From assembly GCA_020631105.1 (NCBI GenBank), contig JAHDHW010000007.1, forward strand, positions 1 through 48,974: a stretch of 48,974 nt of DNA, written 5' to 3'. Shown here in pieces: positions 10,682 to 40,430 of this stretch (the first letter of the stretch is position 1; each line of letters opens with the position of its first letter). This DNA comes from Saprospiraceae bacterium (GTDB lineage: Bacteria > Bacteroidota > Bacteroidia > Chitinophagales > Saprospiraceae). The notes beneath the pieces were generated by a model, which was not told the origin of the DNA, searched no databases, and saw only the letters and a program-made list of their open reading frames with translations. Both the position numbers and the translations under genes were made by a program.

Positions 10682-12926
10682 TGGAACATTCCTGCTTACA
10701 CCGGCTCGGACTGCTGAGGGCTGTGGGCCAGAATTGTTTTTTGATGGTTATTCATTTATTCATTCGGATATTATTCAAAAGGATTCCCTTTATAGCCCAT
10801 ACTTCTATGGCTTTGAAGATTATTACGAACATTTTCAGGAAGTAAAACAGATTCAGGTAAATGAGAATTTATTGGAATGGCAACAAATGTTTTGCGAGCA
10901 GGCATCTATTACTCAGATCGGTCAAGTCGTTTATGATGCTTCAGCTGCTGATATCAAGCTGCTGCGCACAGCAATTCAAAATGAGAAATATCCATTGCAG
11001 GGACGATTGACCAGGAATAGTTTTGCGCAACATCTCAAGTCTAATAAATGTGAGTATACCGTTGATTATTTACTCTATGCAAAAGACTGTGAACCTCATG
11101 TTACTTATTATGACGACTGGGATCGGCCTCAAAAAGATACAATCGAAATGCAGTCTCTTATTGAACGAGGACTAAAAGAATTTCGCCAGAGCAAATCGCA
11201 TTATATTAAGCTACGATATGCGTATCAAATTATTCGACTTGCACACTATAAGAAGAATTATGCTCAAACGTTGAGGTTGCATGATTTTCTTTTACCTAAG
11301 ATTAATCAATTTGACAGTATCCTTAACTACTGGATAATGGGGCATCGTGCGGGAGCATTAAGGGCTCAGGGTAAAAATGTCGAGGCATCTTATTTGTATT
11401 CGCTGATCTTCGCCCAATGTCCAAGCAAACGGGAGACGGCTTATCGTAGTTTTAAAATTACAGATCAGGAGCAATGGGATGAGCTACTCTTAATGTGTCA
11501 GGATGACCAGGAGCGCTCTACTTTGTACGCCATACGGGCAAGTCAAAATAGTGCAAGAGCGGCAGAGGAGATGGAAAAAATTTATGCACTTTTTCCGGAG
11601 AGTCCACAACTTGAGCTCCTTTTGGTGAAGGAGATGAAAAAACTGGAAAAGGATTTATTAGGTATTGATTTTAATGATAAGGTCAAGTCAAATCTAAGGT
11701 TCTATGGATACCCGAGAAAAAAAAGAGGGGATTATGTGATTAGTTTGCATAAGTTAGTTCAAAAGGTTGTAGAAGAGGCACAGGTGAAAAACCTGGAGCT
11801 TTGGAAAATTGCAGATGGATACTTAGAATTTTTAGCCGGGGATTATTATGCTGCAGATTTGACTTTTGAAAAAATAGATGAGGAGATTACAACTGAAGCA
11901 CTTAAAGAGCAGTTGGCAGTTTTTCGGTTAGCCTTAAAGATGAATCGTTGGGAGAATTTCGATAGTGAAGATGAAACGGAGATTGCGGACATAATCGAAG
12001 AAAATCCACTTTACAAAAAGTATAAAGACTTTCCTGATTTCATGAATGATCGTTTGAGTTTCGTTTATAAAAACCAAGGTAACCCGGGAAAAGCTTTTAG
12101 AGTAAGACATCCTTTCGCTGCACTCAAACCAAATCCGCAGACAGAGATAGTAGAGGATTTATTAAAAATTTGTCGGGAAGCAGAGCCTACTAAATTTGAG
12201 CGGGCCCTTATAAAAAAGGATGCTGACGTGACTATCGAAAGTGACCTGATGGATATGAAGGGCACCCGCTACATGGCAATGGGAAAAATGGAAGCAGCGC
12301 TGGAGGTGCTGAAACGAATCCCGCGGAATGATTGGGAGTTGTACAAGTTCAATCCTTTCCTGGAGCGCCTGGGACCTTGTGTCCATTGCCCGATACCGGA
12401 TAGTACAGAGTTGTTTACCAAAGTTGAGATTATTCAAAAAATATTTGAGCTGGAGTATAAAGCCAAATCTGATTACGAGAATAGTGCGATTTATCATTAT
12501 CAACTAGGAAATGCTTATTATAACATGTCTTACTTCGGCTATGCCTGGGATGCGATAGACTATTTTCGAAGTGGCGCGAACTGGTCCTTTGATAAAGATC
12601 GGGTGTTTCCTTATGCTTCTAGTCCATTTGGAAATCGCGAAAATCATGATTTATCGATTGCATTGTCGTATTTTGAGCAATCACGAGCTGAGGCAAAAAA
12701 TCCGGAGCTTGCTGCAAGAGCTGCATTTATGGCTGCGAGGTGCGAGCTGAATTCTTTTTTTGTGAGCAGTCAGAGTCGATATAATTCCTACTTGAATACA
12801 ATACCTGTGATCCCTCCGGAGTATCGCAGATATTATCAGTTGCTAAATGAGAATTACCACCAGACCAATTTTTATCAGGATATAATAGAAGAGTGTAAAT
12901 TTTTCGCGGCTTACGCGAATCACTAA
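10644..12926 (+). CDS. Large secreted helical-repeat (TPR-like) protein
   Basis: A 760-residue protein with a signal peptide (about 1-24) and a short Cys-containing start of the mature part (EGCGPELFFDGYSF). The rest is helical: degenerate TPR-like repeats are visible at about 200-330 (HYKKNYAQTLRLHDFL, EASYLYSLIFAQCP), 395-430 and 540-720. It starts 38 nt inside the preceding lipoprotein gene in another frame, so the two are translationally coupled and probably act together at the outer membrane. I do not recognise a named family. The sequence from 680 on (ALSYFEQSRAEAKNPELAARAAFMAARCE) is the clearest TPR. Confidence 0.75.
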   Translation: MKYWKLFIVLLISGTFLLTPARTAEGCGPELFFDGYSFIHSDIIQKDSLYSPYFYGFEDYYEHFQEVKQIQVNENLLEWQQMFCEQASITQIGQVVYDASAADIKLLRTAIQNEKYPLQGRLTRNSFAQHLKSNKCEYTVDYLLYAKDCEPHVTYYDDWDRPQKDTIEMQSLIERGLKEFRQSKSHYIKLRYAYQIIRLAHYKKNYAQTLRLHDFLLPKINQFDSILNYWIMGHRAGALRAQGKNVEASYLYSLIFAQCPSKRETAYRSFKITDQEQWDELLLMCQDDQERSTLYAIRASQNSARAAEEMEKIYALFPESPQLELLLVKEMKKLEKDLLGIDFNDKVKSNLRFYGYPRKKRGDYVISLHKLVQKVVEEAQVKNLELWKIADGYLEFLAGDYYAADLTFEKIDEEITTEALKEQLAVFRLALKMNRWENFDSEDETEIADIIEENPLYKKYKDFPDFMNDRLSFVYKNQGNPGKAFRVRHPFAALKPNPQTEIVEDLLKICREAEPTKFERALIKKDADVTIESDLMDMKGTRYMAMGKMEAALEVLKRIPRNDWELYKFNPFLERLGPCVHCPIPDSTELFTKVEIIQKIFELEYKAKSDYENSAIYHYQLGNAYYNMSYFGYAWDAIDYFRSGANWSFDKDRVFPYASSPFGNRENHDLSIALSYFEQSRAEAKNPELAARAAFMAARCELNSFFVSSQSRYNSYLNTIPVIPPEYRRYYQLLNENYHQTNFYQDIIEECKFFAAYANH

Positions 12927-12937
12927 AAACAAAACGT

Positions 12938-13681
12938 ATGATTTTTCCTATTGGTGATACCCAAGTTAAAGGAGGGGTGTTTCCCTATGTAACTTATGCC
13001 TTCATTGTGTTAAATGTATTGGCATTTATCTATCAGCTTTCAGACCCTAATTTATTGGTTTGTGACTATGGCTCCGTCCCGAATAACATCTTGAGAGGAG
13101 ATGATTACATTACCTTGCTCACGAGTACTTTTATGCATGGAGGATGGATGCACCTTATCGGGAATATGGTTTTTCTCTGGGTATTCGGAGATAATATAGA
13201 AGCGACAGTAGGTAATTTTTCATTCGCAGGTTTTTACATTCTCGGAGCACTGGCAGCTTCTGCCTTGCACATATTTTTGAGTAATGGATCTTCATTTGAT
13301 ATAGTAAATTGTTGTGAGCTTTGTACCGGCTGTACCGAAGGTGCTGCGCTTTGTCCCGGATCTATTCCAAGCGTTGGAGCGAGTGGTGCAATCTCCGCTG
13401 TGCTTGGTGCTTACCTGGTGATGTTTCCGAAGTCGAAGGTGAAGACTTTAGTGTTTTACTTTTTTATAGAAGTACCAGCATTTTTATTCCTGGGATTCTG
13501 GATTGCACAGCAATTGTTTTTTGGAGTAGGATCATTAGGCGCCGATGCGGCATCAAGTGGCGGAACAGCTTGGTGGGCACATATCGGCGGGTTTGTATTT
13601 GGAGTGATTGCCGGTTTCTTTGCTCGGGATACTAAGCCAAAGGAACCACCAAGGTGGAGAACAAAAAATGATTTTGTATAG
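12938..13681 (+). CDS. Rhomboid-family intramembrane serine protease
   Basis: A 247-residue polytopic protein of the rhomboid family, which cuts membrane proteins within or near the bilayer. Catalytic Ser149 sits in VGASGAISAVLGAY and catalytic His215 in WWAHIGGFVFG; the family motif HGGWMHLIGNMVFLWVFGDNIE (His67, His72 and Asn76) is intact. Between TM helices, residues 120-145 hold five cysteines (125, 126, 129, 132, 139) just before the active Ser, an insertion that looks like a metal or disulfide site. It follows the TPR gene by 11 nt and is probably in its operon. Confidence 0.93.
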   Translation: MIFPIGDTQVKGGVFPYVTYAFIVLNVLAFIYQLSDPNLLVCDYGSVPNNILRGDDYITLLTSTFMHGGWMHLIGNMVFLWVFGDNIEATVGNFSFAGFYILGALAASALHIFLSNGSSFDIVNCCELCTGCTEGAALCPGSIPSVGASGAISAVLGAYLVMFPKSKVKTLVFYFFIEVPAFLFLGFWIAQQLFFGVGSLGADAASSGGTAWWAHIGGFVFGVIAGFFARDTKPKEPPRWRTKNDFV

Positions 13682-34546: not shown

Positions 34547-34729
34547 ATGAAAAAGATTTTTGAAACAAGGTTGGAAGCGATTGACTGGATCGCTGATAAT
34601 GTAGAAAATGAAGGTCAGTTTGAAGCGGTACGTGAAAAACTGTTATTCAATTACATTTACTCCGGAACTTACTTTATCGATACAGATGAAATGAAGGAAG
34701 ACGTCGTGATGCGAGATCAGGAAGATTAA
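34547..34729 (+). CDS. Small acidic protein of unknown function
   Basis: A 60-residue protein (MKKIFETRLEAIDWIADNVE...) with a predicted helix-strand-helix pattern and an acidic C-terminus (DEMKEDVVMRDQED). It has no signal or membrane segment. Its stop codon overlaps the stop of the convergent DUF763 gene by 4 nt (34726-34729). I do not recognise a family. The sequence composition is protein-like and the start ATG is well placed, so I take it as a real gene. Confidence 0.6.
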   Translation: MKKIFETRLEAIDWIADNVENEGQFEAVREKLLFNYIYSGTYFIDTDEMKEDVVMRDQED

Positions 34730-35955
34730 AAAAGTGATAACTGCTTTTTATTCTTTTGTTTTTTTCGCTTTCTACGTTCGTTATCCAGCATACTCTGACT
34801 GTCAAATACTGTGCGCCCACCTAAGGTGTTTGACATTTCCCATTCTTTGTCAATTAATTCCTCATATCGGTCATTCGGAACAAAGTTCTTTTCAATGCGC
34901 TTCGCATTTTCATGTAAACTTTTGATTGCTTTTTGTTTATCGCTATGCCCAATCTTTGCACGATTAACCGCATGTCGAAGGGTAGCGATTGTTTCATCAT
35001 AAACTTTGGTAGGAACAGGGAAGGGGTGTCCATCCTTGCCACCATGTGCGAAGGAGTACCTCGCAGGATCTTTAAATCTCGAAGGTGTACCATGAATAAC
35101 TTCACTTACTAAAGTCAATGATTGTAAGGTTCGCGGACCTAATCCTTCCAGTAAAAGTAGTGACTCAAAGTCACGAAGATCCTGATCATAGGCCATTGCA
35201 ATAATACTTCCCAAGCGTTTAAGATCCACGTCTTTAGCTTTTACATCATGATGCGCAGGCATTTTTATTTTCTGGATTTCCTGAATCATCATTGTAGGGT
35301 GCTGATTTGCAACCTGTATAATTCCATTTTGGGTTATGCCTGCATCTTGATCTGTCAAATTAAGAATCAGACCTTGATTGAGTCCGCAAATTGATGTGTG
35401 CGGATCGCTGATGTAAGAGCTAAAGGTTTCCGAATGCCAATGGTATCGTCGTGCATAACCATTTGTATCATTCATCCCTTGTTGAACGACGGTCCATTCT
35501 CCGTCAGCTGTAACGATAAAGGAGTGAAGATAAATCTGAAAGCCATCCTGAATTGCGGTGTTATCAATCTTAGCGGTTAAGCGACTACTTCGTGCAAGGG
35601 CCTTTCCATCAAGGCCTGTTTTCTCGCCAACTTCATATAATTCTCTTGGGGTTGCCCTGCTGTAGCGACCTCTACCACCACAGATATAAATACCCAGATC
35701 TTTGGCGATAGGATTCAAACCGCGTTTGAGTGCGCCAATCACTGAGGTCGTTATACCAGAAGAATGCCAATCCATCCCAAGAACAGCTCCAAAAGATTGA
35801 AACCATAGTGGATCACTAAGTCTCTGGATTACTTCGCTTCGACCGTATTCCAAAACAATAGATTCGACAATGGCTCGCCCAAGCGTTGTCATTCTTGAGG
35901 CGAGCCATTTAGGAACCCTTCCATAGTGTAGGGGTAAATCAGCGTGATTTGTCAT
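34726..35955 (-). CDS. DUF763 protein with helix-hairpin-helix and clamp-binding C-terminus
   Basis: A 409-residue protein of the DUF763 family (unknown function), recognised by its start LPLHYGRVPKWLASRM, GICGGRGR-type segment (IYICGGRGRYSRATPRELYEVGE; core near 90-100) and IYLHSFIVTADGEWTVVQQGMN. Residues 263-289 form a helix-hairpin-helix (LLLEGLGPRTLQSLTLVSE), a DNA-backbone-binding motif. The last five residues are QLSLF, matching the consensus peptide that docks on the DNA polymerase sliding clamp (DnaN), behind a basic tail (390-404). A role at replicated or damaged DNA is inferred from these two motifs. It is followed 12 nt upstream by the DUF1761 gene. Confidence 0.88.
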   Translation of the reverse strand: MTNHADLPLHYGRVPKWLASRMTTLGRAIVESIVLEYGRSEVIQRLSDPLWFQSFGAVLGMDWHSSGITTSVIGALKRGLNPIAKDLGIYICGGRGRYSRATPRELYEVGEKTGLDGKALARSSRLTAKIDNTAIQDGFQIYLHSFIVTADGEWTVVQQGMNDTNGYARRYHWHSETFSSYISDPHTSICGLNQGLILNLTDQDAGITQNGIIQVANQHPTMMIQEIQKIKMPAHHDVKAKDVDLKRLGSIIAMAYDQDLRDFESLLLLEGLGPRTLQSLTLVSEVIHGTPSRFKDPARYSFAHGGKDGHPFPVPTKVYDETIATLRHAVNRAKIGHSDKQKAIKSLHENAKRIEKNFVPNDRYEELIDKEWEMSNTLGGRTVFDSQSMLDNERRKRKKQKNKKQLSLF

Positions 35956-39452: not shown

Positions 39453-40376
39453 TTAACCAAGCTGCATGTAGTGAATACTCTCCCCAATACTGTTAATCGG
39501 ATCAGGAGATTGATCTTGTTCCACAAAGCAGTATTTAATATCTACCTTTTGTGCCATCGCAATGACTTCCTTTAGGTTAATATTACCATTCCCCAATTCC
39601 TTAAACGCATCCTTCGGAACGGCCCCTTCATCATAAATCGTTGGCGTACCTGCCTGAAGATCCTTGAGGTGAAGTAGGCGAGTCCGATCACCGATTCGTT
39701 CTAGTAGTTGCACAGGATCGTATCCTCCTAAGGCAGCCCAAAAAACATCTAGTTCAAATTGCACTGCAGAAGGATCAAGCCGTTCGATCAATAATTCAAA
39801 AGGTACCTTCCCTTCAATAGGCTCGAATTCAAAGGAGTGATTATGATAACATAATTGAATGCCCGCAGCTTTCGCTTTGGCTCCTGCTTCATTAAGTTTG
39901 TCGCAATGTGATTTATATTGATCAAGTGTATCTCTTTCGCCTTTGTTCAAATACCCAAATACCAGATGATTAATTCCGGCTTTGCTAGCATCCTCTAAAA
40001 CCCGGTCAAAATTATACTGCTGATCTTTTTCATCTGGGACCAAGTGCCAATTACCAGTCAGGCTCGTCCAAAGCATAAAGCTACTGTTTACCTCCATTCC
40101 AAGATCATTCGCGATGGGCTTAAGCGTAGCGAGTTGTCGGGTATCCATCAGCTCAACTTGTTGATAACCAAAATCTGCAATAGCTTTAAGGGTGCCATTA
40201 GGATCTTGTTCTAATTGATCCCGAACGGTATAAACTTGTAAGCCAATAGTATCAAGATAAGGATGATCAGAACCGAGCATACAACGAATGTTTGAAAGTG
40301 ATAATAATGAAAGGCCTGCACCTGCTAGTGCACTTTGTCGCATAAATTGGCGTCGAGGTATACGATGCGATTTCAT
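39453..40376 (-). CDS. Tat-exported sugar phosphate isomerase/epimerase-like protein
   Basis: A TIM-barrel protein of the xylose-isomerase-like family (AP endonuclease 2 superfamily). The start at 40376 gives 307 residues with a twin-arginine signal (IPRRQFMRQSALAGAGLSLL), so it is exported folded, as many Bacteroidota members are. Metal-site elements: CYHNHSFEFEP, FELDVFWAALGG, LHLKDL and FVEQDQSPDP. In the family these bind a divalent metal used in sugar epimerisation or isomerisation; the actual sugar is unknown. It ends 27 nt from the convergent nuclease-like gene. Confidence 0.9.
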   Translation of the reverse strand: MKSHRIPRRQFMRQSALAGAGLSLLSLSNIRCMLGSDHPYLDTIGLQVYTVRDQLEQDPNGTLKAIADFGYQQVELMDTRQLATLKPIANDLGMEVNSSFMLWTSLTGNWHLVPDEKDQQYNFDRVLEDASKAGINHLVFGYLNKGERDTLDQYKSHCDKLNEAGAKAKAAGIQLCYHNHSFEFEPIEGKVPFELLIERLDPSAVQFELDVFWAALGGYDPVQLLERIGDRTRLLHLKDLQAGTPTIYDEGAVPKDAFKELGNGNINLKEVIAMAQKVDIKYCFVEQDQSPDPINSIGESIHYMQLG

Positions 40377-40430
40377 ATTGTAAGTATTTACAAGCAAGAT
40401 AATGAAAAAGGAAGAAATGAGATTACAGTT

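Follow-up and report, generated by a model that had tools for sequence, protein, structure and literature searches.

DUF763 proteins, a little-studied family with a clamp-type tag that co-occurs with Ku, are probably undescribed DNA repair factors

Results

The window, a stretch of 48,974 nucleotides from a Saprospiraceae bacterium, carries a DUF763 protein gene at 34726..35955 on the reverse strand, with an ATG start and a translation of 409 aa. The family assignment made in the first-pass annotation was confirmed by Pfam, PF05559 matching residues 4-314 with an E-value of 2.4e-133 and 444.7 bits (curated cut-off, 35.5). At Pfam E ≤ 1, nothing was found in the protein beyond DUF763 and one weak unrelated family. 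NCBIfam and PDB sequence searches with the window protein gave no match, and the single match from a PDB search with the family alignment A1 was meaningless. A 60-aa open reading frame without a Pfam match (34547-34729, forward strand) is convergent with DUF763, and this frame and the DUF763 stop have TTAA in common. Ten window genes around DUF763 were searched using Pfam and no typical repair gene was found among them. At 39453-40397 on the reverse strand lies a gene for a TIM-barrel protein of the AP_endonuc_2 Pfam family; proteins of this family are often sugar isomerases and no repair role is claimed here.

The conserved core was delimited at residues 9-200 (35356..35931, reverse strand) using a 65-sequence alignment and the high-pLDDT part of an AlphaFold model. 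This model, built with 53 sequences, had a mean pLDDT of 81 and was confident over most of residues 9-300. Polar residues of the core that were invariant across the 65 sequences are R21, D62, S65, S66, D131, Q136, D137, Y142, H144, Q158, Q159, R169, R170, and H172. Together they look like an active or DNA-handling site, and the core is presumed to be a catalytic or DNA-handling domain, for which there are no activity data. Its fold was not recognised. Foldseek searches with the window model against PDB and BFVD, and with a second model against PDB, gave no match at E ≤ 0.001, and VIA-align of the whole-protein model gave weak matches only (Z up to 4.7, top rows on the C-terminal helix). A missing fold match does not amount to evidence for a new fold. 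In the absence of a fold match there is also no evidence of catalysis, and the chemistry of the core is a guess. A loop at residues 224-231 (35263..35286, reverse strand; alignment A1) precedes the M-P-A-H-H stretch and marks the place where other lineages carry a motif-bearing insert.

A helix-hairpin-helix (HhH) was placed at residues 263-289 (35089..35169, reverse strand), which read FESLLLLEGLGPRTLQSLTLVSEVIHG, using the model and a family profile. The model has a helix-loop-helix here, with helices at 263-267 and 274-288. Pfam HHH models did not match the window protein alone, so the HhH claimed by the first-pass annotation holds on the strength of the model and the family fragments but is not recovered when the protein is searched on its own. 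When 26 family fragments (residues 243-300) were combined into a profile, there were 24 PDB matches up to E 10, headed by RuvA (3.5e-4) and ComEA (7e-4); the third best was 1.1e-3 and most were above 0.01. Twenty-two were RuvA, ComEA, topoisomerase V, endonuclease III, polymerase X, DprA, or RecR, all of which we take to contain HhH motifs, and the other two were a translation factor. At E ≤ 1, Pfam HHH matched 13/26 fragments (best 7e-4) and 22/65 whole proteins (best 0.0026); L129, the only case with a bit score listed, reached 18.7 bits (cut-off, 24). An HhH with a GxG hairpin was thus recognised by profile via the family fragments, and missed with the single window protein.

DUF763 could also be a remote HhH-GPD DNA glycosylase or some other known enzyme in disguise. 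An invariant D296-P-A about 20 residues past the HhH (65-sequence alignment) and the base-repair neighbours of some relatives (MPG, Nei-like proteins, AlkB) would agree with this. However, no HhH-GPD profile matched at Pfam E ≤ 1, the whole protein had no useful PDB sequence match and no Foldseek match, and most residues that are invariant in the 65-sequence alignment belong to the N-terminal core rather than to the surroundings of the HhH. No HhH-GPD structure was among the Foldseek and VIA matches listed either. An HhH-GPD fold is not ruled out by weak or absent matches, and the glycosylase explanation is retained as a very remote one.

The protein ends exactly in QLSLF, as had been noticed before. 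Residues 405-409 (34729..34743, reverse strand) are a predicted clamp-binding motif, assigned from the translation, its conservation, and the published consensus QL[S/D]LF or QxxLF (PMC12309361), without binding data. PolC of B. subtilis likewise ends in QLSLF, which has an affinity of 4 uM for its clamp (PMC12309361). The basic stretch RRKRKKQKNKK, to which the first-pass annotation also drew attention, is present as a linker at residues 394-404 (34744..34776, reverse strand), but it is particular to this protein; it is not conserved in relatives, whose linkers vary. Because pLDDT was under 50 at residues 393-409, the tail is predicted to be disordered.

Conservation of QLxLF was followed in an alignment of relatives, as had been proposed. 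Among 395 genomes of the same phylum, 28 carry DUF763, and in all 28 the protein closes with the motif or a near variant of it (e.g., QLSLWDE, QLGLFE, QLSFF). A genome scan, of which the best 80 of 587 relatives were kept, all Bacteroidota, and which thus samples near relatives, had the motif at the end in 79/80 loci. Both sets were pooled to 108 Bacteroidota homologues (L001-L028 and L038-L117), excluding lineage f59. The pattern Q[LM]x[LMF][FW] followed by 0-2 residues closes 107/108 of these, and the exact QLxLF ending occurs in 91. The single exception, L065, has QGSLF at its end, a sequence covered by the broader published form QxxLF; once the pattern was loosened with this exception known, 108/108 matched, with Q at position 1 in all. 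One or two residues stand beyond the motif in 12 members (e.g., QLSLWDE, QLDLFNQ, QLKLFP). Absence of QLSLF from close relatives would have refuted the first-pass proposal; with the motif kept in 107 of the 108, this did not occur. As to lineage-specificity, Bacteroidota outside f59 keep the tail, but f59 and all 15 readable plasmid copies lack it.

Shuffling of the last 30 residues yielded the motif 2 times in 21,600. Entropy was 0-0.21 bits at motif positions 1, 2, 4, and 5 versus 2.2-3.6 bits in the preceding 25 residues, and the linkers before the motif, 9 to 26 residues long, comprised 97 distinct sequences among 103 measurable ones. Codons of the motif vary (Q as CAG in 62 and CAA in 46; six Leu codons); selection is therefore inferred to act on the peptide, not on the DNA. 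A DNA pattern for QLxLF plus TAA occurred 15 times in the window's genome and a reversed control pattern 18 times; among those 15, only that of DUF763 closed, in frame, an open reading frame of more than 41 aa (TAA only, not TAG or TGA). Judged by these counts, the QLSLF tail exceeds chance. It also has what we required of a clamp client at the sequence level: it fits QL[S/D]LF / QxxLF, lies in a segment predicted to be exposed and flexible, and is kept in relatives.

DUF763 (PF05559) occurs in archaea, Bacteroidota, and rhizobia. It was found in 230 plasmid records, 218 of them from Rhizobium, Sinorhizobium, or Ensifer. Some rhizobial plasmid copies are possibly broken, with matches in 2-3 pieces (L122, L123, H6, H36, H81, H99), L122 being out of frame past the HhH. 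A mobile or phage origin was considered and found unsupported: there was no phage record, no viral contig was confirmed, and PADLOC and PHROGs models gave 0 matches at E ≤ 0.01 against three family members.

Lineage f59, represented by six genomes of the same phylum, has 38-44% identity to the window protein and lacks the C-terminal tail. Its insert carries QGDLF or QIDLF in 6/6 members; in the single model made, pLDDT was under 50 at 240-270, with the motif at 243-247, and the insert is predicted to be disordered. Sixteen of the 230 plasmid records were sampled, L122 being frame-broken, and none of the 15 homologues with a readable C-terminus has the tail. Plasmid-borne homologues hold an insert directly before the conserved MPxHH. 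Proteobacterial plasmid inserts contain Q[LP]x[LI]PHL in 11/12 (e.g., QLSLPHL, QLTLPHL, QLALPHL, QPMLPHL), the Devosia copy being the exception, with E replacing Q. The tight-binding Hda peptide is QLSLPL (PMC12309361). The proteobacterial motif merges into a conserved LPHLxMP stretch, which could be structural. No literature pairing QPLLIP with MutL was found by full-text search.

The archaeal sample consisted of four haloarchaeal plasmids only. In all four, GQRSL[AS]DFG is constant and the rest of the insert divergent, giving the PCNA-box-like QRSL[AS]DF. The PIP consensus is QxxI/L/MxxFF/Y (PMC2737543), and haloarchaeal PCNA partners relax the last aromatic residue (PMC2737543, PMC3504372). 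The pattern Q..[ILM]..[FY] was rejected as stand-alone evidence for a PIP; it is too weak and also occurs in a folded Bacteroidota strand (e.g., QLYLHSF). The haloarchaeal motif is counted because it is constant within an otherwise divergent insert. In a midpoint-rooted tree, f59 and haloarchaea grouped together (100/99); bacterial members with a bacterial-type motif and archaeal members with a PCNA-type motif therefore stand inside one group. The proteobacterial clade fell within Bacteroidota with weak support (88/86), and the ancestral place of the motif is unresolved.

These data also bear on whether the tail concerns the clamp at all. QLxLF might mark the protein for degradation, or be merely structural, and have no part in clamp docking, in which case DUF763 would simply bind DNA through its HhH. 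Hydrophobic residues exposed at a C-terminus can function as a degron, and the tail is predicted to be disordered. Such a role is nevertheless difficult to reconcile with the 12/108 members in which residues follow the motif, with the Q kept at position 1 throughout (under the loosened pattern), and with the recurrence of clamp-like motifs in the internal insert of other lineages; we consider it improbable in the extreme, if slightly less so than the glycosylase.

Co-occurrence with Ku (PF02735) was analysed in the phylum sample of 395 genomes and in a genus sample of 150 genomes (Flavobacterium-like, as inferred from sequence). Within the phylum sample, DUF763 was present in 28 genomes, as a single copy each, and Ku in 50. 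Ku was found in 23/28 carriers versus 27/367 non-carriers (odds ratio 58, Fisher p 7e-19), and within the genus in 22/23 carriers versus 11/127 non-carriers (p 3e-17). Ku positives include two fragmentary matches (G239, G557) and one weak match (G290). As related genomes are not independent, the p-values overstate the association. Five of the 28 carriers lack Ku, among them the window's own genome, in which PF02735 had no match.

DUF763 might instead be a clamp client in replication or restart, the link with Ku reflecting a shared lifestyle of large-genome bacteria. Large genomes are indeed common among carriers, the window's genome has no Ku, and the catalase-peroxidase KatG, taken as control, was also associated phylum-wide (25/28 versus 231/367, odds ratio 4.9, p 0.004), more weakly than Ku, so that part of the phylum signal may be due to lineage or lifestyle. 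Within the genus, however, KatG showed no link (18/23 versus 96/127, p 1). Among genus genomes of at least 5 Mb, Ku was present in 18/18 carriers versus 0/7 non-carriers with a size listed. Where genus genomes have both genes (n = 28), these were on the same contig within 135 kb in 17, far apart in 2, and on another contig in 9. Moreover, DUF763 is accessory, occurring in only 28 of the 395 genomes. Replication combined with a shared lifestyle is therefore held to be unlikely, though it remains the least improbable of the three alternatives considered.

Repair genes occur near DUF763 in some relatives. In the Flavobacterium-like genome G532 (L150, L151), in which LigD and Ku are neighbours of DUF763, the order is ligase-associated exonuclease, ATP-dependent ligase, Lhr-type helicase, PdeM, DUF763, LigD, Ku, TIGR03915, TIGR03916. 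In L071 the order is DUF763, endonuclease V, exonuclease, ligase, helicase. By similarity to seeds, endonuclease V is also close in L063, L068, L072, and L152, and Fpg/Nei-like proteins are near DUF763 in six loci. LigD is present in the L089 locus. Ku and DUF763 are about 5 kb apart in L149, separated by sugar-metabolism genes, and in L153, from the window's own family, DUF763 is followed by a DASH-type photolyase family protein and a second photolyase-like protein (assigned from sequence only). Among plasmids, the Bosea locus has a methylpurine glycosylase, two Ku, and LigD near DUF763; in Shinella, LigD is 2.6 kb away; in Rhodopseudomonas, an AlkB gene lies upstream and overlaps DUF763; and in S. 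meliloti, UdgX is about 3 kb away.

The repair seeds were chosen from DUF763 neighbourhoods, and homologues of these were found in only 11/80 flanking regions. No repair-seed match was obtained in any of the Pedobacter flanks, and a single Flavobacterium flank (L108) gave one. The four haloarchaeal loci had no repair neighbours and no seed match (L118 is unannotated); in one of them, an orc1/cdc6 gene stands beside DUF763.

Some neighbours have clamp-type motifs of their own. The TIGR03916 radical SAM protein (putative DNA modification/repair) at 13806-15071 of L150, reverse strand, ends in QLSLFGT. Near DUF763 in L108, a radical SAM homologue, identified by similarity (11828-13096, reverse strand), ends exactly in QLALF. 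No literature on TIGR03916 or TIGR03915 was found. The AlkB-type dioxygenase overlapping DUF763 on the Rhodopseudomonas plasmid (L033, 4381-4989, forward strand, TTG start) begins with LPDQLALF, a clamp-like motif at residues 4-8. Separately, one gene family lies near DUF763 in 11 Mucilaginibacter loci (L066, L067, L076, L081, L086, L087, L094, L099, L100, L102, L109); its L066 member is a DUF4142 protein.

Discussion

DUF763 proteins are proposed to act as accessory factors in DNA repair and to dock on the replication sliding clamp, a reading to which we assign a probability of roughly 80% in the absence of binding or activity data. A clamp-type tag and occurrence with the break-repair protein Ku make this little-studied family a probable, undescribed repair factor. 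The motif, selection at the peptide level, the HhH, and the association with Ku can be read from the sequences themselves. Binding to DnaN (PCNA in haloarchaea) and a role in break or gap repair are inferred without binding data, the repair role resting on the association with Ku and on the neighbours. The first-pass annotation had left open a repair or a replication factor; this is supported, and repair is favoured over replication by the Ku co-occurrence and by the repair neighbours of some relatives.

In the proposed mechanism, the disordered QLSLF tail would slot into the DnaN pocket, and the tail, or the insert, would tether DUF763 to clamps that remain on the DNA where there are nicks, gaps, or repair patches. 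With the duplex held at its backbone by the HhH, the conserved N-terminal core might then act on or mark the lesion, end, or gap. The core may be an enzyme, a nuclease or end-processing enzyme being the likeliest kind, but this is speculation that we rate somewhat short of an even chance. A wider suggestion is more doubtful still: the family may form an undescribed class of clamp-tethered DNA-processing enzymes with a fold of their own, common to archaea and bacteria, with docking code and place rewired per host clamp, with a part in end-joining and ligase-associated repair when cells are damaged or not growing.

No literature was found in a full-text search for COG1415, presumably the COG number of DUF763, and a search on LigD and the sliding clamp gave no title concerning DUF763. 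For DUF763 or PF05559, the full-text search led to a single paper, PMC554113, where the family stands in domain tables; subscription journals and preprints were mostly outside the search and earlier work may exist. The present data turn a barely documented family into a testable object. If the proposal is right, DUF763 is a new clamp-dependent player in accessory break repair and, after NucS, another case of one protein with different docking codes in archaea and bacteria.

Several known systems invite comparison. PolC, a client with a C-terminal QLxLF, has the identical QLSLF at its exact C-terminus (PMC12309361); DUF763, in contrast, matches no polymerase family in Pfam and is accessory (28/395 phylum genomes). 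Bacterial nonhomologous end joining (NHEJ; Ku, LigD) shares the strong Ku co-occurrence and is a neighbour in Bosea and in the Flavobacterium-like genome, but the DUF763 protein has no Ku or LigD domain and 5/28 carriers have no Ku. The ligase-associated DNA damage response genes (TIGR04120-TIGR04123) are adjacent or close in G532 (L150, L151) and L071; DUF763 is, however, not among these four families and the closeness was observed at those two loci only.

The likeness proposed here is to EndoMS/NucS, a repair protein found in archaea and in some bacteria, which binds the host clamp through its C-terminal peptide (PMC11551767). Archaeal NucS docks through a PIP, as in P. abyssi, and actinobacterial NucS through a clamp-binding xxxLF end, which is ELTLF in C. 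glutamicum and EYRLF in M. smegmatis; in M. smegmatis, NucS no longer complemented once the last five residues had been removed (PMC11551767). DUF763 differs in having an HhH, in bearing the motif in an internal insert in some lineages, and in having no known nuclease activity. It has no NucS Pfam match at E ≤ 1, and a relation at the level of the fold is not excluded. With its chemistry unknown, DUF763 is best read, by analogy, as a protein that would work like EndoMS/NucS while being unrelated to it by sequence.
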